Source: Opitutales bacterium (lineage in GTDB: Bacteria > Verrucomicrobiota > Verrucomicrobiia > Opitutales > T3Sed10-336). From it: a DNA stretch of 64,000 bases. The notes beneath the pieces were generated by a model, which was not told the origin of the DNA, ran no database searches, and saw only the letters and a program-made list of their open reading frames with translations. The position numbers and the translations under genes were made by a program. Of this stretch, positions 51,883 through 62,263 are shown piece after piece; the stretch's first letter is position 1; every line of letters begins with the position of its first letter. The stretch is from NCBI GenBank assembly GCA_007130045.1, contig SLTG01000008.1, forward strand, positions 1 through 64,000. The letters run 5' to 3'.

Positions 51883-52776
51883 TCAAGCAAGAGTGCTAGT
51901 GGTACCCGACATTGCGTCGGTTAATGCCTCAAGGAGGGGTACCCATTGTTTGACGCATGTGGACAGGTAGGAACGAGTGGCGGCGAAGATCTCCGCTCCC
52001 TTCCAACTGTGGAAGCAGCCGGATAACTCTTGCCGGATCTTTGCCATGCGTACGTCACGCTCGGCTTGGTTATACGTGAAGGGGGCCTCCTCGTGATAGA
52101 GAAACGCCAACACCCATTCTTCGTGCTCGTTGAGGCGATCGGTAAGGTTGAGCGCATTCGGTTTGGCCACCCAATCTCGTTGTCCCGACTTGAGAACCGG
52201 AGGTTTCCAAGGGTTTTCCTTTCGGCCTTGCTCCAGACATCGGTGGTAACTCTTTCGCCATTTGTCGGAAGGTTTCGCCTCAGGCTCCCGGCAGGCGCGT
52301 TGCAGCAAGCGCTTCAGGTGGCGCGCCCAACTTTGCCCAAGATCCTCAAAGTAGGTCAACTTGCTGATGATATGTTCGTTGGAGATGGAATGCTCGAAAC
52401 CCAGACCAAGGTAAGCCGACCAGAAGTGATGCACAAACCTTCCCCGATACTCGGGAAGCACTCCCATCCGTTCGATCGCTTTGCCCCCGCGTTTCGGATC
52501 GATATGGTAAAGCGTCTGCTTGGAAGTGCTCAACGAATGCAGCCACACGCATTTTCCTTCCACCAGCATTCCGTTTTCATCGGCATGAAGCCACCGGCTC
52601 ATTCCCGAGTTTGCAAGCCATCTCTTTCCGGAAACCCTCCAGATTGGCGGCGCAGCGTTTACGAGGTTCGTACAGAGTACCCTCCGAAGGTTAGCATCCG
52701 AAAAGATCTTTGCACATCTCTTGAATCCTGCGCATCGGAACGGTATTGTGCCCGCTTGCGGGCATCCCGCGCACAT
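51883..52776 (-). mobile_element. IS66-type transposase remnant
   Basis: The 297-codon frame contains IS66 transposase pieces: WLHADENGMLVEGKCVWLHSLST (first DDE aspartate region), then KAIERMGVLPEYRGRFVHHFW, and the C-terminal AFLYHEEAPFTYNQAERDVRMAKIRQELSGCF with GAEIFAATRSYLSTCVKQ. The N-terminal 55 codons are degraded, and the upstream zinc-finger and tnpA/tnpB (IS66 ORF2) parts are missing. The frame is therefore a truncated, inactive copy. I found no clear terminal inverted repeats. Confidence 0.8.
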
Positions 52777-55429: not shown

Positions 55430-57031
55430 ATGAGATATTGCCCCCGTGTATTCCCCGCCGTGTTTTCCGCCGTCTCAGCCGGCGTGGTTTTGTCGGCTTG
55501 CATGCCGCCTGCCGAAGCGGATCTTGACGAGCGACGATCCGTAGAGGTCACGGATCGGGAGATCAGTGATGCGTTTTTCACCGTGGTGGAGCAACTCGAC
55601 CTCGGCGGCGTGTTTTTCGGCTACATCGACATCGAAGAGGATATTGCGGGGTTTGCCGCTGATTTGAACCGGTTCATCGCCGAGATCCAGGAGCATGTGT
55701 CTCCTTTTCCGCCGCTTCCGGTTGACGTCGAGGCGATTGTCCGCAGCGCGCACCTGGACGGGTTGCGTGCGGTCGGGTTGAGTTCGGTGCGAAGCGAAGG
55801 CCTGTTTCGGAATTCCGGGTTCCTTTACCTGCCCGAGGGGCGGCAGGGTGTGTTTCGGGTAATGGGCGGCGAGCCGAAGCCGTTTGCCGGGCTTGCCTAC
55901 GCTCCGGCCGATACGGCGTTTTTCTATGAGATTGAGTGCGACGTTCCCGCGTTGACGAATGTGGTGACCGGGATTGTCGAAACCGTCATGGGCGACGCGG
56001 GACGCAATATGATTGAAAGCTGGAAGGAGCAACCGATCGACGAAAGCGGGGTCACACCGGGGGAAGTCATTGCAGCCCTGGACGGGCGGCTTTCGGTGGC
56101 GCTCGGCCTGAATCCCGGGAATCGGCTGCCGATCCCCGGCGCCGGCGCGACCTTCGCCGAACCGGAGCTTCTGGTTCGGGCCGAGGGATTTGGTTCCCTT
56201 GTGCTAAAGTTGTTGGGTGACAATCCGTTTTTCGTGCGCAGCGACGAGGGCGGGGTTATCATTTTCGAGACCGTGGAGGCGCTTCCGGCGCCGTTTTCCG
56301 GGAAGCACCCCATTTTCCTGATCGAAGACGGAAACATGTTCTTTTCGTTGTCGCGGGAATTCCTGGCGGAAAACCGGGATCTGGACGGTGACACCCTGGG
56401 TGCGCAGGAGGAGTTTGCGACGATTCTGGAAGCCCTGGGCGGTCCGGAAGGGAACGGGCTGCTCTTTGTTCGACCCGTTGTACTGGACCAAATCAGGCGT
56501 TTTGTTCAGGAAAGCGGAGGCGCGAATCCGGAGATGGCTTCGAGTATTGCGATCCTGCAACAAATGCTTCCCGTCACGGATCGTCCGATCGCATCGCTAC
56601 GCCAGAACGTCGATCACGGCATCCTGTTTAAATCCGAATGGCCGAGTTCACACAAGCAGACGATGATTTCCGGGGCTTATTTCAATCCGCTCGTGCTGGG
56701 ACTTCTCAGTTCGATGGCGATTCCCGCGTTCACCCGGGTACGGGAGGATTCCATTGAGGCGCGAACGGATAACGATGCCAGGCAGATCGCGGCGGCGGCG
56801 CAGCAGTATTTCCTCGAGGAAAACGTGGAGGAGGTTTTGGTGGAATACGATCCCGGCACCGGCGAAATTTCCGGACCGCTTGCATTATACGTGCGGAAGC
56901 TCGGCACCGGGTACGACCGGTTTCCTGAAAAGATGACGTTGGACGGCGAGTTTGTCCTGGGTCACCCGACACTCGTCGATGACCGGCGTTACAAGGACTT
57001 TGGGCAGTACATTGGGCCTTCGTGGGAGTGA
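55430..57031 (+). CDS. Lipoprotein with DUF3352-like body and pilin-like C-terminal segment
   Basis: The 533-residue protein begins with a lipoprotein signal ending VLSACMPP. The body (about 40-410) has the loosely DUF3352-like pattern YAPADTAFFYEIECDVPALTNVV and IAALDGRLSVALG. Near residue 420 it has a hydrophobic segment followed by LSSMAIPAFTRVREDSIEART and NDARQIAAAAQQYF, which resembles the N-terminal helix of type IV pilins and pseudopilins (AIP-F-ARE-S... NNLRQI-AA--Y). Such a segment at the C-terminal end of a lipoprotein is unusual. The function is unknown; a surface or envelope role is likely. Confidence 0.6.
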   Translation: MRYCPRVFPAVFSAVSAGVVLSACMPPAEADLDERRSVEVTDREISDAFFTVVEQLDLGGVFFGYIDIEEDIAGFAADLNRFIAEIQEHVSPFPPLPVDVEAIVRSAHLDGLRAVGLSSVRSEGLFRNSGFLYLPEGRQGVFRVMGGEPKPFAGLAYAPADTAFFYEIECDVPALTNVVTGIVETVMGDAGRNMIESWKEQPIDESGVTPGEVIAALDGRLSVALGLNPGNRLPIPGAGATFAEPELLVRAEGFGSLVLKLLGDNPFFVRSDEGGVIIFETVEALPAPFSGKHPIFLIEDGNMFFSLSREFLAENRDLDGDTLGAQEEFATILEALGGPEGNGLLFVRPVVLDQIRRFVQESGGANPEMASSIAILQQMLPVTDRPIASLRQNVDHGILFKSEWPSSHKQTMISGAYFNPLVLGLLSSMAIPAFTRVREDSIEARTDNDARQIAAAAQQYFLEENVEEVLVEYDPGTGEISGPLALYVRKLGTGYDRFPEKMTLDGEFVLGHPTLVDDRRYKDFGQYIGPSWE

Positions 57032-57057
57032 ACGCGAGCCCGGAAGGCGTAACTGAG

Positions 57058-57279
57058 ATGTATTCGGTAAGGAGACCGACGCGGGGGGAATATCTCGTGC
57101 TGTTCACCGTTTTGGGACTGATATTTTTCGGTTTTGGAGTTGCCGGGCTGTATTTCGGATTGCAGGCGCCTGAAGAGAAGAAGGAAGCCGCGGAAGAGCT
57201 CGTTCGGTACAGCTTCATTTCAATCGCATGCGGGGTTGTTTCGGTTTTTTTCGCATCCCTGTTTCGCCGTTGGTCTTAA
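57058..57279 (+). CDS. Small two-helix membrane protein
   Basis: The start is at ATG 57058 (MYSVRRPTRGEYL), preceded by a GGAAGG ribosome site; the tracked start is further upstream. The 73-residue product has two membrane segments (VLFTVLGLIFFGFGVAGLYFGL and FISIACGVVSVFFASLF) joined by a charged loop. I do not recognise a family. It lies 26 nt after the lipoprotein gene and is probably cotranscribed with it. Confidence 0.6.
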   Translation: MYSVRRPTRGEYLVLFTVLGLIFFGFGVAGLYFGLQAPEEKKEAAEELVRYSFISIACGVVSVFFASLFRRWS

Positions 57280-58345: not shown

Positions 58346-61300
58346 ATGAAGAATTTCATATTGCTTCGGCGATCGCATGTTCCTGCGGCGATTGCGTGTG
58401 GTGTGGCGGCATTGGTCTGTTTGGCCATTGTTTATTTGATGTCTCCCGGCTCCGGGACCGTATCCGGTTCCGATGCCGCTTCAATCGACGGATCCGTTGA
58501 AATCCTTCCGGGTCCGTCCGAACAATACGAGCCGGTTGAGGCACGTACTTCATATCTGGATACGATCGATAACGGTTTCCCCGGCGAGATTTCGGAAGAG
58601 GGGGGTGGCGACGGCAGTGCGTCCGAAGCTTTTGCCGCATGGAGCGAGCGCTACGCGACCGCTTCGCCTGCCGAGCGAGCGGCGATGGAGGCGGAGGGAG
58701 TGTTCCTGGCCGGGGAGCGGAGGGACGAGCTGTACCGGTTGATTCGCGAAGATCCTGAAGCCGCGCTGAAATTGGCGGTTCCCGATCGCGTGCGCGGAGC
58801 ACTGCCCGGTTCGGTGACGGCCCTTATCGAGGAACGGTTTGGCGGCACTGGAAGTCTTGTGGTTTTCGGGGTGACCCCGGGTGCCGAAAGACCCGAAGAA
58901 TTTGATCCGGTGTTGCGTTACGCGGAGATTGACGGGGAGCGATACGAGGCGTTCACGTACGGCCGGCGCCTGGATCAGAGGACCGGACGGGATCTATCGC
59001 TGCACGGAATTTCGGTCGATGGACGGATGGCGCTCCACGAGAGCCCTCTGCGGTTGATGGAGGAGGGGGAACGCATCGATGCCGGAACTTCCGTCCTCAA
59101 ATACGATTGCGAAACCGGAAGTGTGTCCGGGACGACGGATGCGGATGTGGCTCCGGGGGCGGTTGCGGCGCAATCCTCCGATATGACTTTCCTGCTTTGC
59201 GGCGAAGACGGTTGCGCCAGCGGGCATTTCATGGCGCTTTCGGACGATTTCACATCCGATTTCGAGGACGGCTTCATTCCCCATCCGTACCGGACCAGGG
59301 GATCAAGAAGCGTTTTGGTCGTCCGGTTTTTGACCGAGGAGGACGAAGACGATGAGAACGGCGATGGAAACGGCGACGAAAACGGCGACGAAAACGGCGA
59401 CGAAAATGGGGGAATTTTCGCGCTGGAGAACGGAGAGGGTAACGGGGAAGAAGAGGAATTGATCCCGGACTGGAGCGATGAGGCCGTTATGGCGGCGATG
59501 CAGGAGGTTAATGAATTCCTGCGCGCGAATTCGTTCCAACAGTTTTCATTCACAACGATCCATGTGACCGAGTTCCTGGCACCGCCCGGCGACTTGTCTT
59601 CGGACCCGATGGAGGTCATCGAAGCGGGACGAAATGCCGCCCGCGATGCCGGGTATGCCGGTGAATATGATTTTCTTATCGTCGGCACGAGGGCGGAGGA
59701 AGGGCTTGGTCGCGGGTACGGGTTGATCGGAGGGAAGGGCGCCTGGGTGCTGGGGGAATTCGATCCCGCCGTCGTCGCCCACGAACTGGGGCACAATTTC
59801 GGTCTGTTTCATGCCGACTACTGGGAGCCTTTCGGTCTCCTGGGGGATTATCCGATCGCAAACGCGCGATCGGTCGAGTCCGGTAATGTGTTTGATTTGA
59901 TGGGCAATGCGGATGCGTTTCCGCAAAATCATTTCAATTCCGCCTTCAAGTCCTTTCTGCGCTGGCTGCCTGAAGCAAACACGCATGTGATTCCTGACGC
60001 GAGTTCGGGCGGGACATACCGATTGCACCGGCTTGACGGAGGCGCCGCCCTCTCGATGAATCGCCGTCACGCGATCCGGCTCGTAAACGATCGCCCCGGC
60101 GATTTTCCAAACATCCCGATCGAGGATTATTGGATTGAGTTTCGTCCGTTGTTCGAAGAAAACCCGCGCGCGAGCATGGGCGTCGCGGTACTCTGGGGCG
60201 ACGAGGGAACCTTCCGCGGAAATCATCTTTTGAACATGGGGCAGGCGGTGGCCGGGATCGAGGCGGGTCTGCTCGATGCCGAGGAATCCGCGCTTGTTTT
60301 AGGGGAAACCTTTTCCGATCTCGCCAACAATATTCACATCACTCCGCTCTCCATGGGGGGGGCGGCGCCTCACGAGTTCGTTGATGTCGCAGTGACGCGG
60401 GGTGTTCTCGAAGTCGCGCTGATCGATCCGTCGCCCGAACCTTCCGTTGTGAATCCCGATGGGGTCATTGGGGTTCCAATAAACGAACAAATCATACTGA
60501 CAGCCGACGCTTGGGCGACAGGCAGTCCGGTCGATAGCGTGGAGTTCCTGCTCAACGGCGAACCCATTCGTCCTGGTGAACCGGTTGGAGGCGGCAGGTA
60601 CACCGCTGAAATGACGCTCGATGGTTTTGGACCCGAAATTCACGAACTGCGGGCGCTGGTCAGGAATGCTGCCGGCAACGAGCGAACGTCCTCCGCCGTT
60701 CTGCTGCAAATCGCGCCGCCCGTTCCCCAGGTCGGTCTCCAGGTTTCGGATATCCAGGTCACGTTGGGTGAAACGGTCACGTTGAGTGTCGTTGACGCGG
60801 ATCAAGGCGAATTTTTCACGATTTCCACAGTGGAGTTCTTCGTCGAGGGGCAAAGCCTCGGGGTGGTTGAGGCGGCGCCGTTCACCATCGAATGGACCGC
60901 TGACGGCAAGGGAGATTTCCTGTTGCAGGCGGTAGTGACCGACGATACCGGTGAATCGGTAACAACTAATTTCGTCGTCGTATTCGTGGTCGACGGCGAT
61001 TTGCCCGATTCTCCGCTCGCTTTCTCCTGGTTCCCCATTACAAGCGGCACAACGGGCGATCTCTTCGATGTCACCTATGGCGGAGATCGATTCCTCGCTG
61101 TCGGAGCATCGGGAATCCTTTTGTCATCCGAAAACGCGGAGGATTGGGTGAGCGAAGACAGCGGGGTGTCCGTGGACCTGCGGGGAATCGCTGCCGGGGA
61201 GGATCTGTACGTCGCGGTCGGCGGCACGGGAACAGTGCTGGAGTCCGTGAATTCGACAGAGTGGACGAGGGTTGACGCGCAAACGATCCGCGGCTTTGAA

Positions 61301-62263
61301 TCGGTTGCGTATGGGGACGGTGAATTTGTCGCGGTCGGCCGGAACGGCCGGACCAAGGTGCGGCAGAGCGACGGGGCATGGAGGCTCCGGTTCGCCGGGG
61401 AATTTTTCGATCTGCACGGCATAAGCTACGGGGCGGATACGTTCGTCGCGGTCGGGCAGGGAGGAAGCGTGTTCACTTCGGAGGACGGATTGGATTGGAC
61501 CCGGCGCTTTTCCGGAACCGACGCTCCTCTTTTTGGAATCGCCCACGGAAACGGGCGGTTTGTCGCCGTGGGCGGGGTCGCCCAGCCGGTGGTGTTGATC
61601 TCATTGGATGGAATCAATTGGACCGAGCTTGACGTTGACGGCTTCGGAGGGCTGCGCAGCGTTCGCTTCGGCGACGAAATGTTTGTCGCCGCGGGGACCG
61701 GTGGAATCATCGTCACGTCTAATCTCGGCGACGTCTGGAGCTTGAATGCTTCGGGCGTTGTGCAAACGCTGGAAGGTTCGACCTTTGGAGGTGAGTTCTG
61801 GGTGGCGGTTGGACGCGAGGGGGTGATCCTTGAATCTCGCCGTACAGGCTATGCGAATTGGCTCACCGTGAACCATTCGCCCATACATTTCGCCAATCCG
61901 GACTGGGTTCTTCCATTGGGAGATCGCGGAGCGACGGGAATTCCAAACGCGCTTCGTTACGCGCTCGGGATCGATCCCCATTCGCCGAGTCAGGAAAACC
62001 TGCCGCGTGTCGGCTTGATCGAGAATGACTCGACCGGCGGAGATTCCTTGTCGATTACATTTACCCGGAGAATCGGATTGAACGACATCGCCGTCCGGGT
62101 GGAGGTTTCAGAGGACCTTGAAAGCTGGGAGATCCTCGGCGACGAGCACATCGTGGAAGTCATCTCGAACGGCGCCATCGAGACGGTTACGGTGATGGAC
62201 AGCGCTCCCGTCACCGAACACACCAAACGTTTCATGAGAGTTCGCGTCGAAATGACGGATTAA
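58346..62263 (+). CDS. Large secreted metzincin-type metalloprotease
   Basis: The 1305-residue protein has an N-terminal membrane/signal segment (VPAAIACGVAALVCLAIVYLM). Zinc is bound by HELGHNFGLFH at 479-489 (metzincin HExxHxxGxxH), followed by a Met-turn-like VFDLMGNADA. A low-complexity stretch rich in Asp/Glu/Asn/Gly lies at about 331-360. Downstream are two Ig-like domains (about 700-880) and about six BNR/propeller-like repeats of about 45 residues (SYGADTFVAVGQGGSVFTSED, about 900-1170). The C-terminal module (ALRYALGIDPHSP ... MRVRVEM) is shared with the S8 protease and the WD40 protein. Likely an exported degrader of protein or glycoprotein. Confidence 0.88.
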   Translation: MKNFILLRRSHVPAAIACGVAALVCLAIVYLMSPGSGTVSGSDAASIDGSVEILPGPSEQYEPVEARTSYLDTIDNGFPGEISEEGGGDGSASEAFAAWSERYATASPAERAAMEAEGVFLAGERRDELYRLIREDPEAALKLAVPDRVRGALPGSVTALIEERFGGTGSLVVFGVTPGAERPEEFDPVLRYAEIDGERYEAFTYGRRLDQRTGRDLSLHGISVDGRMALHESPLRLMEEGERIDAGTSVLKYDCETGSVSGTTDADVAPGAVAAQSSDMTFLLCGEDGCASGHFMALSDDFTSDFEDGFIPHPYRTRGSRSVLVVRFLTEEDEDDENGDGNGDENGDENGDENGGIFALENGEGNGEEEELIPDWSDEAVMAAMQEVNEFLRANSFQQFSFTTIHVTEFLAPPGDLSSDPMEVIEAGRNAARDAGYAGEYDFLIVGTRAEEGLGRGYGLIGGKGAWVLGEFDPAVVAHELGHNFGLFHADYWEPFGLLGDYPIANARSVESGNVFDLMGNADAFPQNHFNSAFKSFLRWLPEANTHVIPDASSGGTYRLHRLDGGAALSMNRRHAIRLVNDRPGDFPNIPIEDYWIEFRPLFEENPRASMGVAVLWGDEGTFRGNHLLNMGQAVAGIEAGLLDAEESALVLGETFSDLANNIHITPLSMGGAAPHEFVDVAVTRGVLEVALIDPSPEPSVVNPDGVIGVPINEQIILTADAWATGSPVDSVEFLLNGEPIRPGEPVGGGRYTAEMTLDGFGPEIHELRALVRNAAGNERTSSAVLLQIAPPVPQVGLQVSDIQVTLGETVTLSVVDADQGEFFTISTVEFFVEGQSLGVVEAAPFTIEWTADGKGDFLLQAVVTDDTGESVTTNFVVVFVVDGDLPDSPLAFSWFPITSGTTGDLFDVTYGGDRFLAVGASGILLSSENAEDWVSEDSGVSVDLRGIAAGEDLYVAVGGTGTVLESVNSTEWTRVDAQTIRGFESVAYGDGEFVAVGRNGRTKVRQSDGAWRLRFAGEFFDLHGISYGADTFVAVGQGGSVFTSEDGLDWTRRFSGTDAPLFGIAHGNGRFVAVGGVAQPVVLISLDGINWTELDVDGFGGLRSVRFGDEMFVAAGTGGIIVTSNLGDVWSLNASGVVQTLEGSTFGGEFWVAVGREGVILESRRTGYANWLTVNHSPIHFANPDWVLPLGDRGATGIPNALRYALGIDPHSPSQENLPRVGLIENDSTGGDSLSITFTRRIGLNDIAVRVEVSEDLESWEILGDEHIVEVISNGAIETVTVMDSAPVTEHTKRFMRVRVEMTD
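59351..59410 (+). repeat. 12-nt tandem repeat encoding Gly-Asp-Glu-Asn units
   Basis: About four to five copies of a unit near AACGGCGACGAA encode the repeats GDGN/GDEN inside the metzincin. The copies nearest the centre are identical, which points to slippage-driven length change. The acidic, Asn-rich repeats may bind calcium. Confidence 0.75.

Follow-up and report, generated by a model that had tools for sequence, protein, structure and literature searches.

What defines a type IV pilin is its N-terminus, and this is where automatic annotation searches. The pilin leader is removed by the prepilin peptidase, while membrane storage and assembly depend on glutamate 5 and on the hydrophobic helix half. 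Both leader and helix have been described (PMC8179133), and modular type IV pilins with grafted domains are also known, e.g., PilB of Streptococcus sanguinis, the pilin module being N-terminal in the survey of such proteins (PMC8179133). The protein considered here, P0001, resembles S. sanguinis PilB in that a pilin module and an unrelated functional domain are combined in one protein (PMC8179133). However, the PilB module is N-terminal, carries a class III leader and is assembled (PMC8179133), whereas the module of P0001 is C-terminal, leaderless, devoid of Glu5 and located after an exported domain, so that the order of modular pilins, an N-terminal pilin module followed by the extra domain, is inverted. 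No description of an inverted leaderless fusion with host-matched tails was found in the open-licence papers searched.

The gene is located in a window of 64,000 nucleotides, the whole stretch of DNA analysed, from contig SLTG01000008.1 of an Opitutales bacterium (assembly GCA_007130045.1). Its features are as follows.

55430 to 57031, plus strand: whole gene, encoding a lipoprotein of 533 aa with a DUF3352-like domain and a C-terminal pilin body; an open frame with full-length relatives elsewhere
55430 to 55501, plus strand: lipoprotein signal sequence and lipobox LSAC, with Cys24 as the predicted lipidation site, read from the translation
55559 to 56686, plus strand: DUF3352-like domain, residues 44-419, from an alignment of 16 relatives
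56666 to 56722, plus strand: weakly hydrophobic segment, residues 413-431, which stands where a pilin has the proximal half of its helix, from Kyte-Doolittle values
56717 to 57028, plus strand: type IV pilin body, residues 430-533, from its identity to the genome's free prepilins

A previous sequence-only reading had placed a lipobox at the start of this 533-residue protein and assigned the range 55430-57279 to it. The lipobox is borne out by the translation, in which the signal sequence, MRYCPRVFPAVFSAVSAGVVLSAC followed by M, contains by inspection the lipobox and its Cys (VVLSAC, residues 19-24), although only about a third of the relatives have a lipid-anchored appearance according to a crude motif. 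The start at 55430 also stands, but the gene ends at 57031 and the remainder of the range corresponds to a separate small ORF, from 57022 or 57058 to 57279, that is not part of the lipoprotein. The beginning of the pilin body, AIPAFTRVREDSIEARTDNDARQ, comprises residues 430-452 (56717-56785). Structure prediction of P0001 alone and of its tail with two sequences yielded low confidence for both models.

The fusion is conserved in other genomes. A search of 52 relatives showed that many genomes of the order encode the full-length architecture, and a profile of the N-terminal domain (N-domain) detected this domain in 90 of 388 genomes of the phylum, with pilin bodies in nearly all tails when the tails of these N-domain proteins were read. 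Misassembly or a chance join of two genes, a danger raised by the sequence-only reading, is excluded by this recurrence of the same architecture with open frames across the phylum. The N-terminal domain shows distant similarity to DUF3352 (PF11832) in several relatives: L105 scores above the curated cut-off and L089 and L101 just below it, whereas P0001 itself gives no match to PF11832 and DUF3352 itself includes no pilin body. On these profile matches, the domain appears to be distantly related to DUF3352. The best explanation of P0001 is that it belongs to a phylum-wide family of exported proteins that combine a DUF3352-like domain with a C-terminal pilin body, lipid-anchored in this case.

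Across genomes, no conserved neighbours of the fusion gene and no conserved operon with pilus genes around it were found. The small membrane protein encoded downstream, which had been suggested as a partner, is present besides the window's genome in only one of the 52 relatives (G001, an incomplete genome whose matches to the lipoprotein are of the free-pilin type only); absent from nearly all relatives and without conserved linkage, it is not supported as a conserved partner. Elsewhere in the window, 51886-52776 (minus strand) encodes an IS66-type transposase, apparently the C-terminal part alone, and 58346-62263 (plus strand) a 1305-aa protein with a bacterial Ig domain, whose match to M12B/M66 metallopeptidases is weak and below cut-off.

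The pilin likeness of the tail is well supported. Bodies of free prepilins from the same genome match residues ~421-526 of P0001 with E-values from 1.9e-33 to 1.2e-16, phmmer searches of the P0001 tail against free prepilins reach a best E of 5e-37, and the identity to the true prepilins of the same genome (L002-L005) amounts to 47-57% across the body, although these prepilins differ in having their own leader, GFTLVE, and a fully hydrophobic helix. When only free prepilins serve as targets, matches at E<1e-3 are obtained for 51 of 57 tails (one gene, L017/L080, entered the count twice), whereas neither reversed tails nor pieces of the N-domain gave any match to the same prepilins (0/57). Moreover, solved structures of PilA/PilE are matched by a profile that combines fused with free modules, two true pilins among them. 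Judged from these alignments, the resemblance is homology, chance being excluded. The pilin-like segment of the sequence-only reading is thus genuine, as is its unusual C-terminal place; it is not the bare helix that had been proposed, since the pilin part of P0001 consists of the distal half of helix 1 and the whole globular body, ~104 residues. Searches of Pfam and NCBIfam returned no match for full P0001 and no significant match for the excised module, because the diagnostic N-terminal motif is missing.

Tails among the relatives fall into short major-pilin types, A and B, and a longer H-X9-DG/DUF1559 type, C, the window tail being of the short class A. Class C tails resemble the DUF1559/H-X9-DG pseudopilins (PF07596, TIGR04294), those of L101 and L103 scoring above the PF07596 cut-off and showing the H-x9-DG pattern, but the motif of L101 and L103 lies near the C-terminus of an exported protein instead of at a prepilin N-terminus. 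The pilin body is absent in some members of the family (L021, L024, and L117). Two pilin heads are arranged in tandem within the C-terminal 200 residues of the relatives L012 and L016. Related pilins also occur in the public record of a Puniceicoccaceae MAG.

Despite this homology, the features on which pilin processing and assembly depend have been lost. Neither a prepilin leader upstream of the body nor a Glu at the position matching glutamate 5 was found in any of the 43 scorable fusions, i.e., those in which a simple pattern located the proline motif, with visible errors of placement in a few of them (e.g., L013 and L085). The strongly hydrophobic N-terminal half of helix 1 is absent from P0001, where the hydrophobic segment has a mean Kyte-Doolittle value of 1.43 and contains Asn and Pro, and the mean is 1.67 in the fusions versus 2.92 in 68 free prepilins. 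Lacking leader, Glu5 and strong hydrophobicity, the fusion proteins are not expected to undergo the normal processing and assembly of pilins. With the three tested defining features missing from its sequence, P0001 would not count as a pilin if the term denotes an assembled subunit.

The ancestry of the tails is intertwined with that of free pilins. A single clade of fused modules is rejected (AU p = 1.2e-4, with four long-branched or degenerate rows omitted and the group defined by architecture, not from the tree), and when fused modules are placed in trees together with free ones from the order, at least four changes between the fused and the free state are forced on well-supported branches. 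The window tail and that of G006 cluster with pilins of their own bacterial family (support 100/99), and the tail of G046 likewise clusters with the pilin of that genome (100/99). The N-domain tree, on the other hand, groups the window's genome (G000) and G006 with G020, G041, G093, G139, and G005 (95/91), whose tails differ in type, which indicates that one of these lineages has swapped its tail; the simplest assumption is that the exchange happened in the lineage of the window. These trees show that the pilin body was replaced on more than one occasion by the pilin type of the host lineage.

Proximity to the host's pilins is also apparent at the genome level. Among the 26 fusions with free pilins available from the same genome, 11 have their nearest free pilin in that genome, against a permutation mean of 1.0 and a maximum of 6 in 20,000; these permutations ignore shared ancestry, which accounts for part of the signal, while the clade test is independent of them. 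An earlier own-genome permutation, based on 11 genomes from the order, had led to the same outcome. Furthermore, all 12 genomes with B tails have B pilins, whereas free B pilins are clearly present in only one of nine C-tail genomes (G161), a contrast that also tracks deep lineages. The G028 tail is unlike the one pilin recovered from that genome. Recent gene conversion as the origin of the likeness is unsupported, since synonymous sites are saturated: codon agreement at identical residues is 0.30-0.47 in six tail-pilin pairs, of which five are best-hit pairs within the gene set of one genome, versus 0.41-0.51 predicted by codon usage. An older exchange between tails and pilins is conceivable. 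Given the amino-acid likeness despite saturated synonymous sites, the natural inference is that the likeness would be maintained by selection on the protein.

Pilin bodies also occur at the end of other proteins. L187:1489-3474 (minus strand, G366), an ORF cut by the locus end, encodes a Ser/Thr protein kinase with Sel1 repeats and a terminal DUF1559-type pilin body, the order being protein kinase, membrane-like stretch, Sel1 repeats, and then pilin body, a layout that fits a periplasmic location of the body. A GYF_2 and DUF4190 protein (L162:1498-2430, minus strand, G262) ends in a class B pilin body. In addition, L134:5841-7421 (minus strand), L135:5151-6647 (plus strand), and L153:1-1749 (plus strand) bear a terminal pilin body with neither a Pfam match nor a clear preceding hydrophobic segment.

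The function that we tentatively favour for the tail, at somewhat less than an even chance, is docking in the periplasm, by a module that matches the type IV filament of its own host. In this view, the tail would be located in the periplasm, bypass the prepilin peptidase and the usual assembly, and offer its pilin body as a surface that docks to the host's type IV pilus or pseudopilus, either at the side or end of the filament or at those parts of the machine that recognise pilins. The DUF3352-like domain would thereby be tethered at the filament, and a role in the regulation or quality control of the filament would be a guess. The window's genome encodes a prepilin peptidase and several PilB/GspE-type ATPases, and therefore suitable machines exist. 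One of these ATPases (G000:C113:71923-73077), among about seven full-length ones in the genome, is encoded on the same contig beyond the window, about 15 kb downstream of the gene. Weighing against docking are the G028 tail, the family members that have no pilin body, and the absence of a conserved linkage between the fusion gene and pilus genes.

The main rival to docking, which we regard as rather unlikely yet deserving of serious consideration, is that the pilin body serves as a passive folded cap or spacer, occasionally replaced from abundant pilin genes and making no contact with the pilus. Genomes of the phylum contain up to 100 or more pilin-like matches each, unrelated proteins bear pilin bodies as well, and several members of the family lack the body, all of which a passive cap would accommodate. 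However, the retention of the body in 51 of the 57 tails, with residues conserved while codons are saturated, points to selection, and a passive cap does not require a swap to the host's own class.

The membrane side of the tail bears on a second alternative, close to the envelope-spanning role that the sequence-only reading had suggested, in which the lipid anchor would be combined with a true transmembrane helix, with either a cytoplasmic pilin head or a helix retained in the inner membrane. The conservation of a weak hydrophobic segment at the same place even where the pilin body is missing (L021 and L024) could be read in this way, as could the Kyte-Doolittle values of 2.0-2.5 that the segment reaches in class B and C members. 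Nevertheless, its retention without the body suggests instead that the proximal half of the segment probably belongs to the DUF3352-like part. Moreover, the segment of P0001, at 1.43 and interrupted by Asn and Pro, and that of the fusions on average fall well below the values of free prepilins, several proteins bear the pilin body without any hydrophobic stretch, and a cytoplasmic head would leave the match to extracytoplasmic pilin heads unexplained. An envelope-spanning arrangement thus appears improbable and the earlier suggestion is not upheld. The low hydrophobicity, the bodies without a hydrophobic stretch and the body placed after a kinase and a membrane-like stretch together favour a periplasmic tail, while a membrane span is conceivable, most of all for members of classes B and C. 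Least probable is that the pilin body acts as an export signal by which a type II-like pseudopilus or pilus of the host carries or pushes the protein to the cell surface. This reading draws on the same matching of tails and host pilins as docking and on the several PilB/GspE-type ATPases of the genome, but lipid-anchored members would have to be carried through the outer membrane together with their anchor.

Docking at the host's filament may also extend beyond this family, and a leaderless pilin body could then represent a general periplasmic docking tag in Verrucomicrobiota-type bacteria, carried by lipoproteins, other secreted proteins and even a protein kinase as a copy that matches the pilin of the cell, through which such non-pilin envelope proteins would be recruited to type IV filaments or sense their state, a generalization that we consider doubtful at present. 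If docking is correct, these proteins would reveal an unrecognised way to attach envelope proteins to type IV filaments, with a tail that is refreshed with the pilin type of the host, and would provide a first handle on DUF3352-like proteins.
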